Source: a virus
Strand: one strand, 5' to 3'
IMG/VR virus record: IMGVR_UViG_3300042691_036646
Location: 1 to 20,475 of that record
DNA: 20,475 nt
Positions within the stretch are counted from its first letter, which is position 1. The number at the start of each line of letters is the position of its first letter. Position numbers and translations under genes: made by a program. The notes under the pieces were generated by a model, which ran no database searches, was not told the DNA's origin, and worked only from the letters and a program-made list of their open reading frames with translations. Of the stretch, positions 7,731-19,793 are shown in pieces.

Positions 7731-9020
7731 TTACGCACCAGCAAGTTCCTTTGCCTTTTCATAAATAGCCCAAACACCAAAGGGAGGTTCTGCGTCCTGA
7801 TTGCCTTTGATAATAAAAACAGTATCGCAGTAATCGGGATCACCCCATGAATTGTAGGGCATGCCATCAGTAAACATAATGAATTTCTTAGGTTCAATAT
7901 TGTTTTCTTTCATGTATTCCCAATTTGCCATAAAGTCAGTGCCGCCGCCACCTTGGGGTTCATACTGACCAATATCTTCCAAGTTATCGCTGGAAAAACT
8001 TTGATGATTGTAAATCTCAGTGTCGAAACTCCACACTTGAATTTTATACTCATCATATGCTTCCATAATACCTTTGATTTCTCCGAGAAACGCTTTGATG
8101 TCTGCTTCACCGATACTGCCAGAAGTATCAATTGCAATACATACATCAATTTGAGTACCTGGTTTCATGCCGGGCATCACTGCATCCATATGCCAGCCTC
8201 GACGATTTGGGCGCATCCAACTAAAGTCATCTTTTACAGTAGACTGGATTTGTTGTTGCAGCAATTCACGCCAATTAACTACAGGTTTTGTCAGGTCCTT
8301 GATCAGACGTTTAACACCCGAGGGCAAATTACCAGCACCCACAGCCTGGGCGGCTTGCAACAGAGCCTCACGAACTTCATCTTTAATTTGACGACGTTCT
8401 TCTTCGCTCAGTTTTGGGCGGCCCTTACCACTACCATCAATGTCGCCATCTTCGCCACCACCTTCACCTTGGCCTTCGCCTTCAAGATGTTCATCCAACA
8501 TCTGTTCAAGCAAATCACTGATGTCAATTTTCTCTGCCTTTTCATAGAGATCGTCATAGACTTCCTCAGCACTCCAACCTTTGTATTTGGGATCATACAG
8601 GCAAGGGGTGATTTTGTCACCAATACGTTGCTCAATAAGGTCGGCATTTACACAATAGTCAGCAGCACAATTAAACAGACGTCGATCGCGGAAGTCACCG
8701 TTACGACCGATATGATCGTATACATTGTGCAGGACTTCGTGTCCAAACAGAAATTCAAGTTCACGGGGTTTGAGTTTGTTGACAAACTCGGTATTGTAAT
8801 AAAACTTGCGTCCGTCAGTGGCTGCAGTACCCAACCAATCATCTGCGTTCACTAGTTGTAGCCTTGTTGCAAGATTACCAAAAAACGGCGCCTTAAGCAA
8901 CAAACCGATTCGAGCAGTGACCAATTTTTCGCGCACCGCTGCATCAAGTTTTGGATCTACATGATCCGTCAACCGACCTGAAAGTTTGGGTTTAGATTTT
9001 TCGCTGTTAGTAGTAGTCAT
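7731..9020 (-). CDS. Metallopeptidase-like plus VWA-domain protein, partner of MoxR ATPase
   Basis: 429 residues in two domains. The N-terminal part (about 25-160) carries GHEVLHNVYDH, an HExxH zinc site at H94-H98, within the putative metallopeptidase domain found at the front of COG3864/DUF2201-type proteins. A Gly/Glu/Asp-rich linker (about 180-205) leads to a helical region and a VWA domain from about 288, with MIDAS residues DTSGS (298-302), T361 in GGGGTD and TDG (384-386). In bacteria such proteins pair with MoxR ATPases, which is the case here (gene ending at 9867). Role in phage unknown. It has a strong AGGAG site, its own consensus promoter, a terminator, and visibly higher G+C than its neighbours (one sampled line 50%). 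Confidence 0.9.
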   Translation of the reverse strand: MTTTNSEKSKPKLSGRLTDHVDPKLDAAVREKLVTARIGLLLKAPFFGNLATRLQLVNADDWLGTAATDGRKFYYNTEFVNKLKPRELEFLFGHEVLHNVYDHIGRNGDFRDRRLFNCAADYCVNADLIEQRIGDKITPCLYDPKYKGWSAEEVYDDLYEKAEKIDISDLLEQMLDEHLEGEGQGEGGGEDGDIDGSGKGRPKLSEEERRQIKDEVREALLQAAQAVGAGNLPSGVKRLIKDLTKPVVNWRELLQQQIQSTVKDDFSWMRPNRRGWHMDAVMPGMKPGTQIDVCIAIDTSGSIGEADIKAFLGEIKGIMEAYDEYKIQVWSFDTEIYNHQSFSSDNLEDIGQYEPQGGGGTDFMANWEYMKENNIEPKKFIMFTDGMPYNSWGDPDYCDTVFIIKGNQDAEPPFGVWAIYEKAKELAGA

Positions 9021-9044: not shown

Positions 9045-9073
9045 ATTATAAAAAATATTGGAATATTTGTCAA
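9045..9073 (-). promoter_or_regulatory. Consensus sigma70 promoter with dyad operator before the VWA gene
   Basis: Minus strand TTGACA (9073-9068), 17-bp spacer, TATAAT (9050-9045): a full consensus match. The -35 contains the stop codon of the gene upstream. The spacer and -10 are spanned by an exact inverted repeat, CCAATATT-6-AATATTGG (9063-9042). The expected start near 9038 leaves a leader of roughly 18 nt holding AGGAG before the ATG at 9020. Confidence 0.85.
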
Positions 9074-9525
9074 GTTACTGTTTTAGGCAATTGTATATTG
9101 CCACGATATAAATTCACAAGAACATTATAGATATAACGATTTTTGCTAGTACCTACGTTATAGTTTTCCAACACAAATTGGTACTCTTCTGATTTAGATA
9201 ACATAAAGCGAACACGATTATATTCTACAACAACTTTCCAAGATCTACTGTATTCGTCTTTATATGTAAATTTTGAAACTTCATTCCATTTATATTTTGG
9301 AAATTCTTGTGATACTCTAGACCACAGCGATTTTGCAGCAGCAACATTAGTGTCGCGTTCTTTAGCAGAAACCAAGCGATCCAGTCTTCCACCAATACTG
9401 ATAAGGTCTTTACCAGTAAGACCGAGAAGTGTGGTATAACTAACTAACTGTCTTATTTGCTCTTGTTTTTCTGGAGAGAACCTTCTAAAGGTTAGATCCT
9501 CTTCTAACTGTTGATCTAGTTCCAT
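9070..9525 (-). CDS. Conserved hypothetical protein between MoxR and VWA genes
   Basis: 151 residues from the ATG at 9525, which lies 2 nt after the upstream stop; a GTG at 9537 would add four. The N-terminal half is helical (MELDQQLEEDLTFRRFSP, LLGLTGKDLISIGGRLDRL). The C-terminal half looks beta-rich and aromatic (SRSWKVVVEYNRVRFMLS, YNVGTSKNRYIYNVLVNLY). No catalytic motif. Its location between the ATPase and VWA genes hints at a link to that module, but it could be unrelated. Its stop codon lies within the -35 element of the VWA promoter. Confidence 0.7.
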   Translation of the reverse strand: MELDQQLEEDLTFRRFSPEKQEQIRQLVSYTTLLGLTGKDLISIGGRLDRLVSAKERDTNVAAAKSLWSRVSQEFPKYKWNEVSKFTYKDEYSRSWKVVVEYNRVRFMLSKSEEYQFVLENYNVGTSKNRYIYNVLVNLYRGNIQLPKTVT

Positions 9526-9527
9526 TT

Positions 9528-9845
9528 TTATAACCACTTTAATTTAAAAAAAGTAAATTCTTCTTCGCCTGCAAAATATATTGCAAATTCTTTTCTACCT
9601 TCAGTCACAAAGTGCCAAGCCCATTTACGAACGAAAGCATCATCTTTATCTGCCAGATAAATTAAAACATCACGTTCGTAACTACGCCCAAAAGAGTCCC
9701 AACACCAATCTCTTAATTCAACAAATTTCAAATAGCGTTCTTGAGTAGGCCCTGTAATTAGAACACGGAATTTAAAGTGTTTGTGTCCTGTAAACCTGAC
9801 GTCTAACTTTTGATAAACAAGAGAGGCATTCATTGTGAATCCCAT
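9528..9845 (-). CDS. Hypothetical protein with hairpin-covered start
   Basis: 105 residues, rich in Trp, Phe and Arg (LRDWCWDSFGRSYERDVLIYLADKD, FVRKWAWHF) and ending FAIYFAG...FTFFKLKW, resembling the end of the small protein at 3701-3937. Two in-frame ATGs exist: 9845 (MGFTMNAS) and 9833 (MNAS). Both, together with the GAGAGG ribosome-binding sequence, lie in the hairpin at 9819-9863 just after the MoxR gene, so translation from RNA reading through moxR should be restrained. Function unknown. Confidence 0.65.
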   Translation of the reverse strand: MGFTMNASLVYQKLDVRFTGHKHFKFRVLITGPTQERYLKFVELRDWCWDSFGRSYERDVLIYLADKDDAFVRKWAWHFVTEGRKEFAIYFAGEEEFTFFKLKWL

Positions 9846-9863
9846 AATATGAATGCCTCTCTT
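9819..9863 (-). promoter_or_regulatory. Long hairpin enclosing the RBS and start of the gene at 9845
   Basis: Plus-strand arms GAGAGGCATTCAT (9821-9833) and ATGAATGCCTCTC (9849-9861) are a perfect 13-bp inverted repeat, extended by two A-T pairs to 9819 and 9863, around a 15-nt loop. On the minus strand, one arm holds the GAGAGG ribosome-binding sequence, the loop holds the ATG at 9845, and the other arm begins with the ATG at 9833. It begins 3 nt after the MoxR stop, and the run after it (TTGTTTATC) is only partly T-rich. It may both weaken transcription and hide the start site, as hairpins do on early transcripts of some T4 late genes such as gene e. Confidence 0.75.
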
Positions 9864-9866
9864 TGT

Positions 9867-10976
9867 TTACTTCTGGCTAGCAGCCACGATGTACTTACCG
9901 AACCGCTTGTGGAACTCATCGAAGTGTTTGAGTTTGCCAGGAACAAACGGAAGGTTGTAAGTAGTCAACGCAACCCGTGCACCCATAACAGTCAGTTCAG
10001 TGGTAAAGTTATCCATCATGAACTTGAAGAAGTTATCCGCCATATCATGCCATTCTGCACTGATTTTGCCTGCTTCTTTCTTTGCAGCATCCTGCAGTTC
10101 GTAGCACATAGCGATAGTTAGACTGTACATAGCACTGATCTCTTTAACCTTGAGTTCCTTAACCTTGCCAGCAAGAATCTCTGAGGGCTTAGGCAGTTGC
10201 CCAGCAACTTTGCGATGTGCCATAAACTTAACAGCAACACCTTCACCCACAGCACCTGCCACAAGGTCAGTAAGATCCTCAGTACTGATATCTTCGTCCT
10301 TGAGCAGTTCGCTGACAAATGTCCAAGAACGGGGAGTAGCAAACGAACGGCTGGAACTACGCGGATCAAAATCGTAGAGATCCTGTTTGGCAAAACCTAC
10401 GTAGCCAACCACGTCTTTATGGATTTTGTTGGTAACGGCCCAAGTTTCCCAGCTGGAATGATCTACCCGCATTTCGATATGGACGAAACGATTAGCCAGC
10501 GGGGCAGGCATACGATAAGTAACACCCTTATCACTTTCACGGTTACCTGCGGCAATTACCACAACATTGTCTGGCAAAACATATTTGCCAATACGACGAT
10601 TCAATACCAATTGATATGCTGCTGCCTGAATGCTAGGAGCAGCACTGTTCAATTCGTCCATGAACAGAACCACATAGGGATATTGGCTAGCGAATTCTTC
10701 GTCGGGCAGATCGATGGGCGGAGCCCAATCCATTTTGCCCACATCTTTATTAAAGAAAGGAATACCACGCAGGTCAGTGGGTTCCATCTGCGCAAGACGC
10801 AGGTCGATAAATGCTGCACCCATTTCTTCAGCAACACCTGCAACAACTTCACTCTTGCCAATTCCTGGAGGACCCCACAGGAATACAGGACGCTTCTGTT
10901 TGAAGCAAGCAAGGATAATACGGCGGGCTGCAGTGGCAGTTACGGTACGATGTTCGGTAACGGTTTCTTTAGTCAT
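9867..10976 (-). CDS. MoxR-family AAA+ ATPase
   Basis: 369 residues. Walker A is GPPGIGKS (35-42), Walker B VVLFMDELNSAAP (102-114) with D107/E108, sensor 1 VVIAAGNRES (139-148) with N145, and RMPAPLANRFVHIEM (155-169) gives the conserved Arg near R163. This is the MoxR group (COG0714), whose members act as hexameric chaperone-like ATPases, usually with a VWA partner; here that partner lies two genes downstream. The ATG follows AAACAGGAGAG, a strong ribosome-binding site, and a dedicated promoter sits upstream. Base composition (one sampled line 50% G+C) is richer than flanking genes, perhaps from selection for high expression or from transfer. The function in the phage is unknown. Confidence 0.93.
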   Translation of the reverse strand: MTKETVTEHRTVTATAARRIILACFKQKRPVFLWGPPGIGKSEVVAGVAEEMGAAFIDLRLAQMEPTDLRGIPFFNKDVGKMDWAPPIDLPDEEFASQYPYVVLFMDELNSAAPSIQAAAYQLVLNRRIGKYVLPDNVVVIAAGNRESDKGVTYRMPAPLANRFVHIEMRVDHSSWETWAVTNKIHKDVVGYVGFAKQDLYDFDPRSSSRSFATPRSWTFVSELLKDEDISTEDLTDLVAGAVGEGVAVKFMAHRKVAGQLPKPSEILAGKVKELKVKEISAMYSLTIAMCYELQDAAKKEAGKISAEWHDMADNFFKFMMDNFTTELTVMGARVALTTYNLPFVPGKLKHFDEFHKRFGKYIVAASQK

Positions 10977-11007
10977 TTAGACTCTCCTGTTTAACGTTGA
11001 AAAAACA

Positions 11008-11036
11008 ATTTTAGTTGAAAAAAGAATATTTGTCTG
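11008..11036 (-). promoter_or_regulatory. Sigma70-type promoter before the MoxR gene
   Basis: Minus strand CAGACA (11036-11031), 17-bp spacer, TAAAAT (11013-11008). It shares the exact block GACAAATATTC with three other promoters in the window, although its -35 departs from TTGACA in two places. RNA starting near 11001 would give a leader of about 25 nt carrying the AGGAGA site. No dyad covers its -10, unlike the VWA promoter. Confidence 0.7.
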
Positions 11037-11292: not shown

Positions 11293-11321
11293 ATTATAAG
11301 AAATAATGGAATATTTGTCAA
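11293..11321 (-). promoter_or_regulatory. Consensus sigma70 promoter before the 72-residue gene
   Basis: Minus strand TTGACA (11321-11316), 17-bp spacer, TATAAT (11298-11293). The element begins directly after the stop codon of the upstream gene. It shares TTGACAAATATTCCA and the downstream ATTGGTA with the VWA promoter; the dyad over the spacer and -10 is present with one mismatch (CCATTATT against AATATTGG). Confidence 0.85.
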
Positions 11322-11626: not shown

Positions 11627-11655
11627 ATTTTACCAAATATTGGAATATTTGTCAA
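11627..11655 (-). promoter_or_regulatory. Sigma70-type promoter before the SH3-like gene
   Basis: Minus strand TTGACA (11655-11650), 17-bp spacer, TAAAAT (11632-11627). The -35 contains the stop codon of the upstream gene, as at the VWA promoter. The block TTGACAAATATTCCAATATTT is shared with the VWA promoter except at the spacer end, where CCAATATTTGG forms a shorter dyad. The leader to the ATG at 11597 would be about 20-25 nt. Confidence 0.8.
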
Positions 11656-19145: not shown

Positions 19146-19793
19146 TTAATTGTTTGATTTGATAATATGTGAATCTTCTGAATCTTCTTTGGCCAATCTA
19201 CGTTGTAACCAATTAAGCAGCACACCGTAAGCAGGAAGAATCACTAGCAAACTTACAAGGATTTTGCTGATACTGTTATTTGTTGCTACAATGTGCCAAT
19301 TAGCCGCCATAAATTCATTTGCACCTTTGTAGAATGCAGTAAAGAAGAATGCGTAAGTATCAATGAATGTGCTAACTACTGCACTTAGACTTGGAGCAAT
19401 CCACCAAGTTGCATATTTTTCTCGTAAGTATTGAAAAACATAAACATCTAATAGATTACTAACAAAATATGCAACGCCTGAACCCAAGCCAATTCTAATT
19501 GCCACAGAATCCGGTGCACCGCCTAATTTTACTACCAGCATACTGGCCAAAATTGCAGGAATAAATGCCAATGTAATGACTGCACGACCAGTTTGTTTCC
19601 CTAACAGTCGAACAGTCAAGTCAGTTAATACAACAACCAACGGAAATGTGAAAGCGGCCAAAGCCAATGGATTTCCGAAAATATTGATTTTAAATTGTAC
19701 AATATAATTACTGACCGCAATTATTAGAATATGCAAGGCCATTAATTTGTAAACTAAGGATCGATCTGTGTTGCCTAAGATTCTATCTAACAT
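19146..19793 (-). CDS. yhhQ: YhhQ/VUT-family queuosine precursor transporter
   Basis: 215 residues, about six hydrophobic membrane segments. It matches E. coli YhhQ in length and in diagnostic residues: SNYIVQFKINIFG (28-40), FTFPLVVVLTDLTVRLLG (48-65), SNLLDVYVFQYLR (112-124), WWIAPSLSAVVSTFIDTYAFF (130-150), and AFYKGANEFMAANW (153-166). E. coli YhhQ takes up preQ0 and preQ1 across the inner membrane for queuosine; this is the most likely activity here, in the host membrane. AGGAGA precedes the ATG. It stands near QueE and GMP reductase. The tail is charged and cytoplasmic. Confidence 0.9.
   Translation of the reverse strand: MLDRILGNTDRSLVYKLMALHILIIAVSNYIVQFKINIFGNPLALAAFTFPLVVVLTDLTVRLLGKQTGRAVITLAFIPAILASMLVVKLGGAPDSVAIRIGLGSGVAYFVSNLLDVYVFQYLREKYATWWIAPSLSAVVSTFIDTYAFFFTAFYKGANEFMAANWHIVATNNSISKILVSLLVILPAYGVLLNWLQRRLAKEDSEDSHIIKSNN

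Follow-up and report, generated by a model that had tools for sequence, protein, structure and literature searches.

What does a long RNA hairpin do when its base lies at the stop codon of one gene and its loop holds the likely start codon of the next? The question is raised by a 20,475-base fragment of an uncultured phage, here called the window, in which such a hairpin stands between a moxR-like gene and a small gene, orf105, all on the minus strand (Table 1). The small gene is real, since it belongs to a conserved family and its fold is predicted with confidence. D15, W75 and Y90 are conserved in the family, while L14, R17, G20, W47, G53 and W77 are near-invariant; the predicted fold matches three uncharacterised proteins of uncultured Caudovirales, and searches gave no solved-structure (PDB) fold match and no Pfam or PHROG match. 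The family, represented by orf105 and A6, is unnamed, usually follows moxR, and carries conserved LD, WCW, WAW and LKW motifs. Among the cultured phages searched, no relative of orf105 was found. The metallopeptidase/VWA gene further along bears the PHROG 1314 label of HNH endonuclease; Pfam shows a DUF2201 metallopeptidase and a VWA domain there, so the label looks wrong.

Table 1. Features around the moxR-orf105 junction, in window coordinates.
Feature	Positions	Strand	Comment
Hairpin 5' arm, AAGAGAGGCATTCAT	9849..9863	-	Holds the GAGAGG ribosome-binding sequence
Hairpin loop, ATTATGGGATTCACA, 15 nt	9834..9848	-	Contains the likely start codon
Hairpin 3' arm, ATGAATGCCTCTCTT	9819..9833	-	Coding sequence of orf105
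Extended stem-loop	9814..9869	-	Outer pairs UAAACA/UGUUUA include the moxR stop codon
GAGAGG, Shine-Dalgarno-like	9856..9861	-	10 nt upstream of ATG 9845; predicted anti-SD duplex -7.8 kcal/mol
Likely start codon of orf105 (MGFT...)	9843..9845	-	MGxT N-terminus common to L005, L029, L145, L030
Alternative in-frame ATG	9831..9833	-	The L022/L167 clade starts at its counterpart
moxR-like AAA+ ATPase gene, 369 aa	9867..10976	-	Stop codon 9869-9867
orf105, small protein, predicted alpha/beta fold (pLDDT 88.5)	9528..9845	-
orf155	9070-9537	-
DUF2201 metallopeptidase/VWA gene, probable moxR partner	7731..9020	-	Pairing described in PMC7824862
Likely moxR promoter, CAGACA-17-TAAAAT with phage motif GACAAATATTC	11008..11036	-
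Next phage-type promoter, TTGACA-17-TATAAT (12/12)	9045..9073	-	Before the metallopeptidase/VWA gene

The hairpin over the orf105 start is real. An earlier note had described an inverted repeat at 9819-9863 with GAGAGG in one arm, one ATG (9845) in the loop and another (9833) at the edge of the opposite arm, and its coordinates and content are right for the minus strand: the arms pair at 15 of 15 positions around a loop of 15 nt, GAGAGG lies in the 5' arm, and ATG 9833 stands at the top of the 3' arm. The junction reads TAA-ACAAAGAGAGGCATTCAT-ATTATGGGATTCACA-ATGAATGCCTCTCTTGTTTA on that strand, with the moxR stop codon sitting in the base of the stem. The thermodynamic folding that the note had proposed as a check returns a strong hairpin, at -38.4 kcal/mol for 101 nt of the minus strand (z -6.3), and 0 of 200 shuffles were equally stable. 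Of 1000 first-order surrogates of the window, two had a longest perfect arm of 15 and two one of 14; no other surrogate reached 14. In a ranking of 97 gene starts by fold energy, the top two places go to the orf105 start of the window and to its nearest relative's homologue. Rfam covariance models at gathering score found no match in the window. A separate imperfect inverted repeat (20 nt, 85%, spacer 28 nt) lies within a coding region at 19408-19475.

It had also been claimed that RNA reading through from moxR should form the hairpin and so bury the ribosome-binding sequence, and the computed folds bear this out. The probability that GAGAGG is unpaired is 0.0002 at 37 C and stays between 0.0000 and 0.0004 over 10-45 C. 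An RNA thermometer was rejected, because GAGAGG is hardly more unpaired at 45 C, its accessibility being flat over that range. Opening the 33-nt initiation region of orf105 has a computed cost of 26.3 kcal/mol, which ranks first among 89 starts with a median of 7.5, these starts being mechanical ORF calls from the window and three related contigs. The same gene costs 23.1 kcal/mol to open in L003, 20.9 in L086 (on the contig of L005) and 20.2 in L171 (on the contig of L022), and these four orf105 values are the top four of the 89.

A hairpin over the gene start is found in four contig groups that carry the orf105 gene. On the contig of L003 and L004, where moxR is 97% identical to that of the window, the arms are identical; from offset -12 to +68 relative to the moxR stop, the window and L004 differ at six positions, all of them in the loop (6 of 15) and none in the arms. 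L022 and L167/L169 are further removed (moxR about 78%) and have the same arm sequence with changes from C-G to U-G and from U-A to U-G and with loss of the outermost A-U pair; their loop is different, contains an AGGA of its own and is without the first ATG. In L005 and L085, where moxR is 95% identical to that of the window, the arms are unrelated (GGAGTCGAAGACA/TGTCTTCGACTCC) and complementary at 13 of 13 positions, again around a loop of 15 nt. The 5' arm of L005 holds a Shine-Dalgarno (SD)-like AGGAG and its loop an ATG; AGGAG begins 8 nt, and the start codons lie 24 and 36 nt, from the first base of the moxR stop codon, all as in the window. This is evidence that structure, not sequence, is kept between the window and L005. 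Nucleotide identity between the two is about 0.88 in moxR and falls sharply, to about 0.6, just past its stop (L005 5107-5450 against window 9869-9528). The stretch downstream of moxR was therefore probably swapped as one cassette whose edge is at the hairpin, in which case both donors would have had a hairpin there.

The relatives answer in two ways to the earlier suggestion that compensatory changes should be sought in related phages. Pairing is kept, and the L005 arms are different yet complementary, but strict column-by-column covariation is not seen: the changes in the homologous arms are one-sided steps to G-U, and the L005 arms occupy non-homologous columns. Only three arm versions are known, two of them homologous. 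The loss of arms without compensation, which the note had named as evidence against its proposal, does not occur in the nearest relatives (L003/L004, L022, L167, L005), but more distant relatives that carry the gene do lack the hairpin; at that site most of these either carry a different hairpin or lack a ribosome-binding sequence. A sequence-specific RNA-protein operator was rejected, since the L005 arms are entirely different. Further hairpin relatives were sought with single proteins (three), with an alignment and with the arm pattern; only the contigs named here came up, and a search of genome contigs added none.

Which of the two ATGs begins the gene had been said to depend on the hairpin, but the hairpin alone does not decide it. 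The predicted protein begins MGxTM in the window, L003 and L005, and MGMT in L029, L145 and L030, which lack this hairpin. Because the MGxT N-terminus is shared with relatives that lack it, ATG 9845 is most likely the start in the window, and coding is enough to account for the conservation of ATGGG in the loop, a second ground for rejecting the RNA-protein operator. The L022 clade has only the second ATG, the equivalent of 9845 being absent, and uses the counterpart of 9833.

The transcript that carries orf105 can be approached through the promoters. The motif GACAAATATTC has four exact matches in the window, all on the minus strand and each at a good promoter: one before moxR (11024-11034), one before the metallopeptidase/VWA gene (9061-9071) and two further upstream (11309-11319 and 11643-11653). 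It is a phage-specific extended -35 motif, seen in relatives as GACAATAATTC/GACAAATATTC. Scans for three types of site, namely GACAAATATTC, sigma70-like sites and TATAAATA-like elements (one mismatch allowed), gave nothing in the gap between moxR and orf105, nor anywhere on the minus strand from 9532 to 11008 outside the moxR leader. On these three scans a promoter of its own was rejected for orf105, and since none was found between the two genes, orf105 probably rides on the moxR mRNA.

A stable structure right after moxR predates this particular hairpin, and most relatives have one, though its sequence and type vary. At 40 moxR loci the first 55 nt past the stop have a median fold energy of -17.1 kcal/mol (90% at or below -10), compared with -6.8 kcal/mol at 570 other ORF stops (21% at or below -10), a contrast whose p-value is not to be read literally because the loci are related and the ORFs mechanical. 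The device found there may be a start-burying hairpin, a hairpin that resembles a terminator, or a separate conserved element whose loop has an anti-SD sequence. In the 22 relatives examined for an SD before the small gene, those that bear the hairpin have one, and it is buried except in L022, whose loop has a second SD, which means that burial of the SD is not strictly conserved; 17 of the 18 without a start-burying hairpin have none, L021 being the sole exception. Weak initiation of the small gene looks like a family constant, reached by different means.

The separate conserved element lies directly after moxR in L010 (5114-5160), L012 (5105-5155), L019 (5114-5160), L021, L087, L110, L121 and others. 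Its outer stem appears as GGGG/CCCC, GGGAGG/CCTCCC or AGGG/CCCT, and its inner stem covaries (GGG/CCC, AGG/CCT, GAG/CTC, TGG/CCA, AGTT/AACT); the loop contains ACTCCTTT, complementary to the SD of moxR itself (AAAGGAG), and GTAAGT precedes the last strand. No Rfam match was found at the six loci searched. In a scan of viral sequences for this element, the structured hits lay after moxR in 11 of 11 cases among the matches listed. Tentatively, the site after moxR may be a standing regulatory site in a large phage group, at which unrelated RNA devices set the level of the small protein or of moxR; on the same reading these devices would include terminators, start-burying hairpins whose arms can be exchanged, and a covarying anti-SD element not described before.

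What, then, would the hairpin do for the two genes? The reading that we favour, at a probability of about one half, is that it may act in cis as a translational throttle between moxR and orf105. On mRNA that runs through moxR, the SD and start region of orf105 would be locked in a stem of about 20 bp, and new ribosomes would hardly initiate. A ribosome terminating on moxR should cover or melt the 5' arm, since the stem has its base at the moxR stop codon; opening the orf105 start would then cost about 5 kcal/mol in place of 26, allowing a limited, moxR-dependent start at ATG 9845. The expected result would be little orf105 protein, in an amount tied to moxR translation. Folding under constraint is consistent with the middle step: with a terminating ribosome covering 11-15 nt past the stop, the computed opening cost is about 4-5 kcal/mol in five of five sequences. 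L022 and L167 need the full 15 nt covered, and coverage of 9 nt leaves 10-17 kcal/mol (10 in the window). A reach of 11-15 nt past the stop is at the edge of the usual ribosome footprint.

The literature on re-initiation and on structure after stop codons cuts both ways. Several downstream genes that are silenced by structure and released by upstream translation are listed in a recent review (PMC12548453), which also describes constructs of phage fr in which, of two starts at +23 and +35, the nearer was used. In six native gene pairs, a distance of about 20 nt almost abolished re-initiation (PMC10666635), and in a synthetic operon the downstream gene was expressed less when a stable structure stood just past the stop codon (PMC7518266); given these two results, coupling between moxR and orf105 may be negligible. 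For this reason the main and serious rival to the throttle is a pure insulator, a hairpin that stops ribosomes finishing moxR from re-initiating and leaves orf105 at a low basal level. The structure starts 3-7 nt past the stop and is far below -6 kcal/mol, matching the published description (PMC7518266), and the fold after the 40 moxR stops is stable whatever gene comes next. An insulator, however, would not need to enclose the SD and start codon of the following gene, as this hairpin does recurrently with unrelated arms, and the published signal is depleted where genes lie less than 25 nt apart, against 21 nt here. We regard the insulator as somewhat unlikely.

The terminator-like hairpins with a T run that occupy the same place in L023, L029, L034, L040 and L145 raise another explanation, a 3'-end signal of the moxR mRNA (a weak terminator, an RNase III site or a stability hairpin) whose overlap with orf105 is incidental. 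A stem of 15-20 bp could be an RNase III substrate, and TTGTTTAT comes after the stem in the window, but L022 and L167 have no T run there (AGTCTGG) and L005 has only a displaced one (CAAATTTTC). An intrinsic terminator was rejected on these grounds, the absence of a conserved U run and the 15-nt loop; a terminator scan covering loops of 3-8 did not list the hairpin. Efficient termination would, moreover, leave orf105 unmade if it has no promoter of its own. A 3'-end signal is doubtful. A switch of the T4 gene e type, in which read-through mRNA is blocked early and translation comes later from a transcript starting within or just after the 5' arm, was the parallel drawn in the earlier note. 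Its sequestration half fits, being like that of T4 genes e, soc, 49 and I-TevI (PMC3014915), but its second half finds no support: the promoter scans described above are empty at the hairpin, and a transcript that started in the loop, or otherwise lost the 5' arm, would lose the sole SD, both in the window and in L005. We consider such a switch very improbable. The lowest standing goes to a chance inverted repeat without function, for instance one left by a template-switch event. Template switching does yield perfect arms, and the L005 arms are not homologous column by column, but three arm versions at one position, arms unchanged while the loop diverges, and the high rank among all gene starts in both fold energy and opening cost make chance a far-fetched account.

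The hairpin can be compared with several known systems. In the papers searched, no description turned up of orf105 between the MoxR and VWA genes or of the hairpin. The flanking genes are those of the MoxR-VWA/metallopeptidase chaperone pair of group 2.2 jumbo phages, which has been proposed to serve virion assembly (PMC7824862), and orf105 belongs to a small, widespread, unnamed family linked to that pair in phages, whose dose seems to be held down. In T4 genes e, soc, 49 and I-TevI and in Aeh1 mobE, intergenic hairpins bury the downstream SD and/or AUG on read-through mRNA (PMC3014915), and the window hairpin likewise holds SD and AUG in a stable stem on read-through RNA; T4 gene e, however, has a late promoter in the region of the 5' strand that yields an unfolded transcript (PMC3014915), whereas none was found in the window. 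The ribosome termination structure of Chemla et al. 2020 (PMC7518266), a stable structure directly after a stop codon that is reported to restrict re-initiation, is defined as reaching -6 kcal/mol or lower between -10 and +59 relative to the stop. The window, at -23.0 kcal/mol in 55 nt, resembles it, but differs in that the gap from the stop to ATG 9845 is 21 nt (at least 25 in the definition) and the next start codon is enclosed. Coupling by RNA unfolding, known from phage f1 VII/IX, MS2 coat-lysis and E. coli rpmI-rplT (PMC12548453), involves a silencing structure that upstream ribosomes disrupt, as they may do in the window, and the window starts at +21 and +33 resemble the fr starts at +23 and +35; here, however, stop and start lie apart and do not overlap, and coupling is a prediction from folding. 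The hairpin offers a clean natural test of insulation against unfolding-based coupling after stop codons, since one and the same structure is built from arms of unrelated sequence. Set beside these systems, it is a new, fairly clean case of control of a known type, and not a new kind of system.
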